Shown here piece by piece: positions 7,982 to 25,148 of a DNA stretch of 35,868 nt (positions within the stretch are counted from its first letter, which is position 1; each line of letters opens with the position of its first letter). The stretch is from Gammaproteobacteria bacterium (lineage in GTDB: Bacteria > Pseudomonadota > Gammaproteobacteria > UBA6429 > Thiohalophilaceae): the NCBI GenBank assembly GCA_024641475.1, contig JAHECZ010000027.1, forward strand, positions 1-35,868, read 5' to 3'. A program made the position numbers and the translations under genes. The notes below the pieces were generated by a model. That model made no database searches, was not told the origin of the DNA, and saw only the letters and a program-made list of their open reading frames with translations.

Positions 7982-8044
7982 GCATTCTCATTACTTGTCA
8001 ATACTGTAGGCGCTGTAACATAAAAATAATTGCTGTCCACAAAG

Positions 8045-12019: not shown

Positions 12020-12060
12020 AAAATCAATACGCAGGGAAATAAATTTAAAAATTAAAAAAT

Positions 12061-12089
12061 TTGAATTTGTACCGAAATCGGTTATCTTA
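12061..12089 (+). promoter_or_regulatory. candidate sigma70 promoter for the polA-engB small RNA
   Basis: TTGAAT (12061-12066) and TATCTT (12084-12089) are separated by 17 bases, each matching four of six consensus positions. An A/T-only run at about 12040-12060 lies directly upstream, like an UP element. Transcription would start near 12096. A second possible -10, TATATT, is at 12092-12097. Confidence 0.4.
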
Positions 12090-12218
12090 CGTATATTGTT
12101 TGTTTGGAAAGATTGCGCTCATCAAGAAACCGATGAGGGAACTTTTAGTCAGCCCGCCCGACTAATGGTTTTAGTGGTAAGTTTCCCGCGCAATCCCCCT
12201 CCCTGGCGGGAAATTTAT

Positions 12219-12246
12219 ACACCCGAACCCCAAAGTCGGGTGTTTT
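12219..12246 (+). terminator. terminator-like hairpin 1 in the small-RNA region
   Basis: An eight-pair perfect stem ACACCCGA/TCGGGTGT with nine-base loop ACCCCAAAG. Only about four T follow, so termination may be partial and read-through to the next hairpin is possible. Confidence 0.5.
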
Positions 12247-12249
12247 ATG

Positions 12250-12285
12250 CCCCAGGTAGTCTTCCCCCATTACCTGGGGTTTTTT
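12250..12285 (+). terminator. rho-independent terminator 2 in the small-RNA region
   Basis: A perfect nine-pair stem CCCCAGGTA/TACCTGGGG with a 12-base loop holding CTTCCCCC, followed directly by six T. It begins four bases after hairpin 1. Confidence 0.85.
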
Positions 12286-12329
12286 CTGTCCGATATCTTT
12301 AATTCCAACTATTCGTCTCTACTATTGTA

Positions 12330-12442
12330 TTCAACGCGCCTTGCTCCTTCCCTGGCGAGGTTTGTCCTGTCTCCCCGACAGGATATGCGATTCGCCCCGG
12401 CCAATTTCGACCCCCCATATCCCTAAAGCCGGGGCGTTTTTT
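12330..12442 (+). ncRNA. second putative C-rich-loop small RNA (or distal part of the first)
   Basis: After terminator 2 the same design repeats. Stem CCTTGC/GCGAGG (12339-12360, one G-U pair) has loop TCCTTCCCTG. Stem TCCTGTC/GACAGGA (12365-12383) has loop TCCCC. The terminator stem CGCCCCGGC/GCCGGGGCG has a 26-base loop containing ACCCCCC. The loop TCCTTCCC is complementary to purine-rich ribosome binding sites. TACTAT at 12320-12325 could be a -10, but I see no good -35, so it could instead be read-through from the first unit. Ends are estimated. Confidence 0.5.
12393..12442 (+). terminator. rho-independent terminator 3, abutting engB
   Basis: A perfect nine-pair GC-rich stem CGCCCCGGC/GCCGGGGCG with an unusually long 26-base C-rich loop and six T. 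The T-run overlaps the engB stop codon. The T-run is only on the plus strand, so it serves transcripts coming from the polA side and not engB. Confidence 0.8.
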
Positions 12443-22589: not shown

Positions 22590-22624
22590 GAGTGTTGCAG
22601 GATTCACGTCAAGGAGTAAGACCC

Positions 22625-24259
22625 ATGAAGGCTTCAGAATTGTTCGTCCGCTGCCTGGAAACCGAAGGCGTCGAGTATATATTTGGTATCCCTGGCGAGG
22701 AAAACCTCGACATGATGGATGCCTTGCTGGATTCCAAGATTAAATTCGTCACCGTGCGTCATGAGCAAGGCGCCGCCTTCATGGCTGATGTTTATGGCCG
22801 CCTCACCGGCAAGGCCGGGGTGTGTTTATCGACGCTCGGACCTGGAGCCACAAATTTGATCACTGGCGTAGCGGATGCCAACATGGACCACGCCCCGTTA
22901 GTAGCGATTGCCGGTCAGGCCAGTACGCATCGATTGCACAAGGAATCGCATCAGGTGCTGGATCTGGAAGAAATGTTTCGCGCCGTCACCAAATATTCGT
23001 CGCGCTTATTGACGCCAAATATCATTGCCGAGGTAGTGCGCAAAGCCTTCAAGCTATCGCAAAGTGAAAAATACGGCGCAACATTTATCGAATTCCCGGA
23101 AAATATCGCGGAAATGGAAGTCGAGGATCAGGAACCACTGCCTGCCCGTTTTCCTCATGCGCCCGAACCACCAGCAGAACGGATTGATAAAGCGGCAGAG
23201 ATTATTTCGAGTGCCAAGAATCCTATCATTTTGGCGGGTAATGGAGTAATTCGTAACAAGGCCTGGAAGCAATTGGCCCAGTTCGCTGAGGAGTTGCGTA
23301 TCCCCGTGGCCAATACCTTTATGGCCAAGGGCGTGGTGCCGTTCAAACATCCGATGGCGTTGGGCAGTGCGGGACTGCAAGCCAAAGATTATGTGAGTTG
23401 TGGTTTTAGTCGCGCCGATGTGATCATTTGCGTCGGATACGATCTCGTGGAATATCACCCTTACCTGTGGCATCCGACCAAGGACCGTACCATTATTCAC
23501 ATCGACAGTGCACCAGCCGAAGTCGATGCCTATTACAACGTGAGCGTCGGCGTCATTGGCGATCTTAAACATTCGCTGTTGCGTATTATGAAAGTGGCCA
23601 GTCCGCATACGGGTACGGCGATGCGTGGCTTGCGCGCGGCGCTGATTGAAGATATGGATCAACATAAGGATGATAATTCCATTCCCGTGAAGCCGCAGAA
23701 AATAATCTGGGATTTGCGTACGGCCATGGATATGGAAGGTATCGCGATTTGCGATGTCGGCGCCCACAAAATGTGGATGGCACGAATGTTCCGCTGCGAG
23801 TATCCCAACACCTGTATCATTTCCAATGGTTTTGCCAGCATGGGTATTGCCGTGCCTGGTGCTCTGGCGGCGAAGCTGGCCTTTCCGGAAAGGCAGGTTG
23901 TGGCAGTGACCGGTGATGCCGGGTTTTTGATGAATTGTCAGGAAATCGAAACCGCGATGCGTATGAAGACAGCGTTTGTGATCCTGATTTGGAACGACAG
24001 TGCGTATGGTTTGATTGAATGGAAGCAAATGAATTATTTCGGGCGTAAGTCGCATGTGGATTTTACTAACCCGGATTTTGTCAAACTGGCGGAATCATTT
24101 GGCGCGAAAGGTTATCGTATCACTCGCGGCGAGGATCTATTACCAACATTAAAACAGGCGCTAGCAGATAACACCGTCAGTATTATCGATTGCCCGGTCG
24201 ACTACAGCGAGAATCTCAAACTCACTGCCAAGCTGGGTGAAATGGTTTGTCCGATTTAA
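22625..24259 (+). CDS. acetolactate-synthase-like TPP enzyme (catabolic AlsS type likely)
   Basis: A 544-residue ThDP-dependent enzyme. I chose the ATG at 22625, which follows AAGGAG. The N-terminal domain has FGIPGEENLDMMDALLDS and the catalytic Glu in VRHEQGAAFMADVYGR. The ThDP-binding domain has VTGDAGFLMNCQEIETAMRM and LIWNDSAYGLIEWKQ. Family members condense two pyruvates to acetolactate. No regulatory small subunit (ilvH/ilvN) or other branched-chain gene is adjacent, which points to a catabolic or orphan enzyme; no acetolactate decarboxylase is present either, so the product's fate is open. Related 2-oxoacid-using TPP enzymes remain possible. A structured leader precedes it. Confidence 0.82.
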   Translation: MKASELFVRCLETEGVEYIFGIPGEENLDMMDALLDSKIKFVTVRHEQGAAFMADVYGRLTGKAGVCLSTLGPGATNLITGVADANMDHAPLVAIAGQASTHRLHKESHQVLDLEEMFRAVTKYSSRLLTPNIIAEVVRKAFKLSQSEKYGATFIEFPENIAEMEVEDQEPLPARFPHAPEPPAERIDKAAEIISSAKNPIILAGNGVIRNKAWKQLAQFAEELRIPVANTFMAKGVVPFKHPMALGSAGLQAKDYVSCGFSRADVIICVGYDLVEYHPYLWHPTKDRTIIHIDSAPAEVDAYYNVSVGVIGDLKHSLLRIMKVASPHTGTAMRGLRAALIEDMDQHKDDNSIPVKPQKIIWDLRTAMDMEGIAICDVGAHKMWMARMFRCEYPNTCIISNGFASMGIAVPGALAAKLAFPERQVVAVTGDAGFLMNCQEIETAMRMKTAFVILIWNDSAYGLIEWKQMNYFGRKSHVDFTNPDFVKLAESFGAKGYRITRGEDLLPTLKQALADNTVSIIDCPVDYSENLKLTAKLGEMVCPI

Positions 24260-24371
24260 TGACTAGTATCCAGTGACTTGTAGCGAGTGACCGGGATGGA
24301 AAAAGAATTCTAGTTGTTAAACATAATTTTAGGGTGCTCGTTACTTGTAACTTGTCACTCATCACTGGTTT
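24260..24371. repeat. inverted pair of degenerate seven-base repeat arrays
   Basis: Directly after the TPP-enzyme stop come five phased heptamers (24260-24294): TGACTAG, TATCCAG, TGACTTG, TAGCGAG, TGACCGG. After a 42-base AT-rich spacer, the opposite-strand pattern follows (from 24337): CTCGTTA, CTTGTAA, CTTGTCA, CTCATCA, CTGG. The two arrays face each other and can fold into an imperfect long hairpin. No genes lie within. The EEP-family ATG at 24375 is only a few bases beyond. Confidence 0.6.
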
Positions 24372-24374
24372 AAA

Positions 24375-25148
24375 ATGAGCGGTCAACACATAAAAATTAT
24401 GAGTTACAACGTACAGGTGGGGATCAATACTCGCTTCCCGCACCAGTACATTACGCATAGCTGGAAACACCTGTTTCCCCACACACAACGCTTGTCGAAT
24501 TTGGATAAGGTGGCGCAACTCATGAGCGATTGCGATATCGTCGGAGTTCAAGAGGTGGATGCAGGATCCTTGCGGAGCAATTACATCAACCTGGTTGAGT
24601 ATATGGCACTTAAGGCCGGTCAACCCTACTGGTATCACCAGGTAAATCGTAATCTCGGGCGACTGGCACAACACAGCAACGGTCTGTTGAGTCGTTTTTA
24701 TCCAACGCGAATCGAAGATATTTCTTTGCCAGCACTGATTCCCGGGCGCAATGCCATCCTGGCTTGTTATGGCAAAGAGGAGCAGGGCATTGCGGTGGTT
24801 ATCGCGCACCTGTCGCTGAGTATGCGGGCGCGCTTGCGACAAATCGAATACATCAGTGAACGTATCAGCGGCTTACGCCACGTCATTCTGATGGGAGATT
24901 TGAATTGCAAACCCGACAGCAAGGAAATGAATTTATTATTCCGGCTTACGCGTTTGCACGAACCGATCGAAGAGACCTTAACCTTCCCAAGCTGGCGGCC
25001 GCAGCATAGTATTGACCATATTCTGGTCACGCCGGAGTTTAAGGTCCAAAAGGTGACGGCGCTAAATCATGCCTACTCAGATCACTTACCGATTTTGATG
25101 GAGTTAGGGCTGCCCGAGGGTATCGAAATGGCGCGGTTAGCAGCATGA
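24375..25148 (+). CDS. endonuclease/exonuclease/phosphatase (EEP) family protein
   Basis: A 257-residue protein of the DNase I/exonuclease III-like metal-dependent phosphoesterase fold. Conserved points are the N-terminal Asn in MSYNVQVG, the metal Glu in IVGVQEVDAGS, VIAHLSLSMRARLRQIEYIS, the Asp/Asn pair in ILMGDLNCKP, and the C-terminal SIDHILVTPEF and YSDHLPILMEL. There is no signal peptide. It could act on nucleic acids, phospholipids or sugar phosphates; the sequence does not decide. It occupies the same slot as the EEP gene between dsbA and dgcP in Pseudomonas. There is no clear Shine-Dalgarno sequence, and the repeat arrays abut its start. Confidence 0.88.
   Translation: MSGQHIKIMSYNVQVGINTRFPHQYITHSWKHLFPHTQRLSNLDKVAQLMSDCDIVGVQEVDAGSLRSNYINLVEYMALKAGQPYWYHQVNRNLGRLAQHSNGLLSRFYPTRIEDISLPALIPGRNAILACYGKEEQGIAVVIAHLSLSMRARLRQIEYISERISGLRHVILMGDLNCKPDSKEMNLLFRLTRLHEPIEETLTFPSWRPQHSIDHILVTPEFKVQKVTALNHAYSDHLPILMELGLPEGIEMARLAA

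Follow-up and report, generated by a model that had tools for sequence, protein, structure and literature searches.

The gap of 115 nt between a thiamine-pyrophosphate (TPP) enzyme gene and an endonuclease/exonuclease/phosphatase gene contains two facing arrays of seven-base units within the window, the whole stretch of 35,868 nt of gammaproteobacterial DNA that was analyzed. The feature is probably a worn copy, specific to this lineage, of an intergenic repeat that is dispersed in the genome and composed of inverted arms of stacked KRACNAG heptamers; it is most likely near-neutral. Comparison within this genome and with others establishes its membership in this repeat family, the convergent layout of the arrays, their mostly intergenic position and direction away from the adjacent gene, their patchy presence among relatives, a length difference of one whole unit at one locus, and homogenization of the arms in one genome. 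The element would have arrived as a small palindromic unit once this lineage and the sister species had separated, after which point mutation and slippage in steps of 7 nt would have altered its arms. It would be transcribed together with both genes as an imperfect hairpin, most likely with no maintained function.

Facing heptamer arrays between two genes

The upstream gene (22592–24259, plus strand) encodes a TPP enzyme of the acetolactate synthase type with three TPP_enzyme domains, and the downstream gene (24375–25148, plus strand) a protein of the endonuclease/exonuclease/phosphatase family that starts at the same codon as in the sister species. The left array (24260–24294, plus strand; TGACTAG, TATCCAG, TGACTTG, TAGCGAG, TGACCGG) abuts the TAA stop codon of the upstream gene (24257–24259) and is followed by a 42-nt spacer without strand assignment (24295–24336). 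The right array (24337–24371, minus strand; AAACCAG, TGATGAG, TGACAAG, TTACAAG, TAACGAG) ends 3 nt from the ATG at 24375; its outermost unit, AAACCAG, is worn and the other four are good. A first-pass annotation had described facing seven-base arrays directly after the stop codon and before the ATG, and this description is confirmed, with five units on the left and four good units plus the worn one on the right.

The seven-base phasing is clearest in the right arm, where 19 of 28 positions match at lag 7, compared with 13 of 29 in the left arm; lag 7 ranks highest among lags 4–11 in both. None of 2000 dinucleotide shuffles of the gap reached the autocorrelation of the right arm. That of the left arm was reached by 498 of 2000, so the left arm alone is not significant. 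A facing-array score based on unit weights reached 75 at 24260–24371, the highest value among 40 shuffled windows being 37.5, a comparison that is partly circular because the weights were picked after the unit was known. An initial scan of the window that allowed three mismatches gave 200 matches where 231 were expected, which is no more than chance.

The gap strand is predicted to fold into an imperfect hairpin of −32.3 kcal/mol (shuffle mean −25.4, sd 3.2), a value equaled by 5 of 200 shuffles, in agreement with the hairpin proposed earlier. The accompanying suggestion that it might end transcription was not borne out: no intrinsic terminator, defined as a GC-rich stem with a T run, was detected in 24200–24420, and no T run lies 3′ of the right arm. 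A promoter scan of the gap was likewise empty, and neither the gap nor the whole window matched an Rfam family. The idea that the arrays supply stop codons in every frame was dropped, because the right arm lacks any stop on the coding strand.

A dispersed family with a convergent layout

In what follows, G000 denotes this genome, G001 the sister species, and the other G numbers compared genomes. The exact two-unit pattern TRACNAGTRACNAG has 16 matches elsewhere in G000, none inside the window, and its reversed control has none. The search for further copies that had been proposed as a check was thus positive, and supports the earlier assignment to a repeat family with seven-base phasing. Allowing one mismatch makes the pattern far less specific (73 matches in G000, 54 for the control), and many of these matches, when the loci were read, stand single and look like chance. 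A lone intergenic two-unit match with one mismatch (TGACAAG TAATGAG) lies within the window at 7987–8000 on the minus strand; it may be due to chance, since 0.94 one-mismatch matches to a similar pattern are expected per window. Facing arrays occur at several other gaps of G000, for example the dnaK–dnaJ gap (L007) and a gap that separates two tRNA genes (L053).

The KRACNAG family is patchy among relatives. Within the GTDB family, exact-pattern counts (reversed control in brackets) range from 64 (1) in G028, 56 (7) in G023, 36 (1) in G019, and 28 (2) in G018, through 14 (1) in G009, 13 (2) in G022, and 8 (4) in G002, to 1 (1) in the sister species. Three exact KRACNAG units were matched in 24 of 369 genomes sampled from the class. 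Twenty stretches from four of these 24 genomes, all in other families, comprise the dialects TGACGAG, GAACTAG, GAACCAG, and TGACAAG, several of them as facing pairs. In 400 kb of G002, chosen mostly by expected synteny, a period of seven accounts for more tandem arrays than any other (42 of 123, with another 12 at period 14), and these period-7 arrays belong to several unit families. One 20-kb stretch of the same genome (L259, G002:C2:340000-359999) holds 20 tandem arrays whose period is 7 or 14 and among which several unlike heptamers occur.

The elements share a constant plan: CAG or AAG, KRACNAG repeats, often GAAA, a locus-specific spacer, and then the mirror image, so that the inner edges are often GAAA...TTTC. 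Median spacer length is 29.5 nt in G000 (10 pairs), 61 nt in G028 (18 pairs), and 118 nt in G019 (13 pairs). The arrays encountered form convergent pairs: among neighboring arrays no more than 200 nt apart, 35 face each other (><), none point apart (<>), and six share a strand, as counted from exact units in five sets of loci, four of which had been picked for holding arrays. Arrays are mostly intergenic and read away from the adjacent gene, whatever its orientation. Of the two edges of an array, the outer one is the closer to a gene in 15 of 22 arrays of G000, 26 of 34 of G028, and 25 of 32 of G019. Gene positions were taken from a simple codon-usage gene caller written for this analysis, and arrays that lacked a neighbor or fell within an ORF call were omitted (3 of 25, 11 of 45, and 13 of 45, respectively). 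In G000, G028, and G019 the median distance is 0, 6, and 10.5 nt at gene 3′ ends and 46.5, 28, and 108.5 nt at gene 5′ ends; adjacency at 5′ ends is weak in G019, where none of 10 arrays lies within 15 nt. Runs range from two to more than 10 units, the commonest being four in G019 (26 of 48) and G028 (16 of 38) and two in G000 (14 of 23).

At the gap under study, inspection by eye showed no arrays in any of 29 relatives, 27 of which have the two genes next to each other. The corresponding gap of the sister species measures 47 nt, and an identical gap sequence is present in the record JACQBC010000011.1 from a groundwater gammaproteobacterium. Given this absence from all relatives, the element was probably gained in this lineage, although loss elsewhere could still account for the pattern. 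The spacer weakly resembles the native gap of the sister species, but not to a significant degree (p = 0.064 for the spacer and 0.117 for the gap as a whole); its origin as native gap sequence was considered on this suggestive match and set aside at that p value.

Other orthologous gaps were compared as well. Between atpG and atpD, arrays are present in G028 and G018, in decayed form in G011, and possibly decayed in G012; in the remainder of the 26 gaps read by eye no arrays were evident. At the same position in G022 (L220) another heptamer, GATACAA, faces itself where relatives have KRACNAG arrays. The dnaK–dnaJ gap carries arrays in G000 (L007), G018 (L199), G028 (L149), and G163 (L282), spanning three genera of the family plus another family, to which G163 belongs; worn heptamers may be present at this gap in other genomes. 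In G163 the stop codon of dnaK appears to come from the first unit, and a hairpin lies between the arrays. Between the congeners G019 and G002, both arrays of L181 have been retained, the right one being longer by exactly one unit in one of the two genomes; at L178 arrays are present in both genomes with changed units, and at L163 and L164 the gap aligns too poorly to compare. The unit-number comparison suggested in the first-pass annotation therefore gave a whole-unit change at L181. Further copies, this length change, and strong within-arm homogenization in G028 having been found, the earlier interpretation as a phased repeat family stands.

Arm evolution and competing explanations

The two arms of one element resemble each other no more than they resemble the arms of other elements, according to nine tests in G000, G028, and G019 (p from 0.15 to 0.997); the upper value comes from G028 arms anchored at their inner end, where own pairs are worse than shuffled pairs (p = 0.997). 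There is hence no sign that pairing is maintained, and coupling of the arms as a stem was rejected on these tests in the three genomes. In G028, the first two bases of neighboring units in one arm agree in 82 of 119 comparisons, compared with 96 of 356 between an element's own left and right arms and 5098 of 11202 between units of different elements, which indicates that each arm is homogenized singly, as by slippage. G000 (2 of 16) and G019 (16 of 43) are without such homogenization. Together with the one-unit difference between congeners, the strong effect in G028 agrees with the slippage origin that had been proposed for the arrays.

Predicted folds are significantly better than those of shuffles for 38 of 41 elements, as must be expected of any inverted repeat. 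The same result, the low frequency of shuffles that equal the window fold, and the many copies at gene 3′ ends would also fit an RNA hairpin under selection, one that protects the two messages or keeps them apart in the manner of intercistronic REP elements. Such selection is nevertheless improbable. The arms are uncoupled, and in G028 a T-type arm often meets a G-type arm, which costs one pair in seven; in G011 the fold of the orthologous element is gone (z −0.9), arrays flank tRNA genes as well, no terminator is present, and the gap is without the element in all 29 relatives. The stabilization of mRNA suggested earlier is conceivable, but there is no sign of maintained pairing, own arms matching no better than foreign ones and one ortholog having lost its fold. 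A protein of the nucleoid or a global regulator that reads about four heptamers could explain why four-unit runs are commonest in G019 and G028 and why pairs are convergent, and regulator binding is what has been proposed for the paired repeats of Geobacter (PMC2700814). However, the unit varies freely from genome to genome and inside each genome, run length is highly variable, presence at a given gap is not conserved, and no protein was identified, all of which makes this reading quite improbable.

Two further explanations concern how the arrays come about. In REP/RAYT systems a tetranucleotide guide lies at the foot of the hairpin. Mobilization of a REP-type palindrome by a RAYT (Y1 transposase) would suit short, dispersed intergenic palindromes, and Y1_Tnp matches were indeed obtained in G028 (7) and G019 (3). 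None was found in G000, whose assembly is 97.4% complete, or in G018 and G023, despite 16, 28, and 56 pattern matches, whereas G015 and G016 have 7 and 8 Y1_Tnp matches with only 3 and 1 pattern matches; the explanation is thus largely refuted. Nor was a target-site duplication, as expected of a MITE, detected in 41 pairs (direct flank match 3.0, shuffled 2.88; p = 0.198). Since neither a duplication nor a mobilizing enzyme was found, insertion as a unit is something that we infer. Alternatively, the arrays may be born in place without any insertion of a unit, heptamers growing by polymerase slippage and the inverted partner arising by template switching in a hairpin. G002 carries several heptamer families that are unrelated to one another, with seven as its prevailing period, a different heptamer shows the same facing layout at atpG–atpD of G022, and the G163 arrays surround the hairpin of the dnaK–dnaJ gap, all of which speak for birth in place. 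Against it, a recent inverted copy should make own arms closer than foreign ones, which they are not, and unrelated gaps of a single genome repeatedly show one and the same unit consensus with shared edges, so that this origin appears unlikely.

The uncoupled arms, together with the absence of a target duplication, a Y1 transposase, a terminator, and an Rfam family, are the reasons for which the element is held to be a near-neutral dispersed palindromic repeat. Several results count against this preferred reading. The good folds are what a selected hairpin would also produce, the four-unit peak in G019 and G028 is not predicted by plain neutral slippage, and within-arm homogenization is seen in G028 and not in G000 or G019. 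Finally, the non-significant spacer likeness to the sister species and the bracketed hairpin of G163 would fit arrays that grow around native DNA.

Relation to published heptamer repeats

Heptanucleotide repeats are known from other bacteria, including the heptanucleotide STRRs of cyanobacteria. Among the papers listed in a search of the literature, none described KRACNAG arrays. The paired intergenic heptamer layout itself is already published for the Xanthomonas repeat GGGAATC (Rehm et al. 2015, PMC4692102), and the addition made here is that units mostly unable to form quadruplexes keep it. In that paper the 7-nt unit is described as intergenic and dispersed, usually in four copies, with about 70 convergent pairs per genome; it lies near the ORF on its 5′ side in any ORF orientation (mean 28 versus 160 nt), its length differs between related species, and the authors found no link to mobile elements. 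The present arrays resemble it in the tandem 7-nt unit, the dispersed intergenic copies, the convergent pairs, and the direction away from genes. In contrast to the Xanthomonas unit GGGANTN, which is discussed there as quadruplex-forming, KRACNAG units are mostly unable to form quadruplexes: the motif fits 7 of 95 arrays of at least four units and does not fit those of the window, and the layout therefore does not need quadruplexes.

Other published cases were compared too. Paired repeats of Geobacter metallireducens (PMC2700814) consist of 7- or 8-nt units in tandem, placed on the two strands with a varying distance between them, and also occur as single sets of four GGGACCG units; their opposite-strand tandem layout is like that of the KRACNAG arrays, and the units differ. 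The gammaproteobacterial TAACTGA repeat of Beggiatoaceae (MacGregor 2015, PMC4679880) is intergenic, starts with TAAC, and is variable in copy number, with 169 direct sets and one indirect set that adjoin start codons and a unit that varies little, whereas another unit and a paired inverted rather than direct layout are found here. Heptamer repeats also form part of a stem-loop in P6b of the cyanobacterial tRNA-Leu intron (PMC4476775), which is one locus in a group I intron and not a dispersed intergenic family.

That the same layout, with a four-unit preference in two genomes, is found without quadruplex-capable units points to the making of arrays rather than to quadruplex function. More speculatively, and rather improbably, a single process independent of unit sequence and of G-quadruplexes might lay about four heptamers convergently at gene edges in unrelated bacteria. 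If so, the 7-nt length, the roughly four units, and the direction away from genes would be the footprint of an enzyme, and the unit could be replaced as a whole while the layout stays: KRACNAG here, GAACTAG or TGACAAG in other gammaproteobacterial families, GATACAA at the atpG–atpD gap of G022, and GGGAATC in Xanthomonas. The interest lies in why such different heptamers share one layout, and the lineages named above are those where array-making can be examined.

Two observations lie outside this argument. In G019, the spacers of L159, L162, L164, L168, L171, L181, and L185 hold other repeated palindrome-like sequences between the facing arrays, such as CCCTCCCC...GGGAGGG, CACGAAG...CTTCGTG, and GTAGGAGCG...CGCTCCTAC, which looks like one palindrome nested inside another. 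Elsewhere in the window, the gap between polA and an oppositely oriented engB-like gene (12020–12440), which matched no Rfam family, contains several hairpin-like stretches with T runs; in enterobacteria, Spot 42 RNA lies between polA and the engB-like gene.
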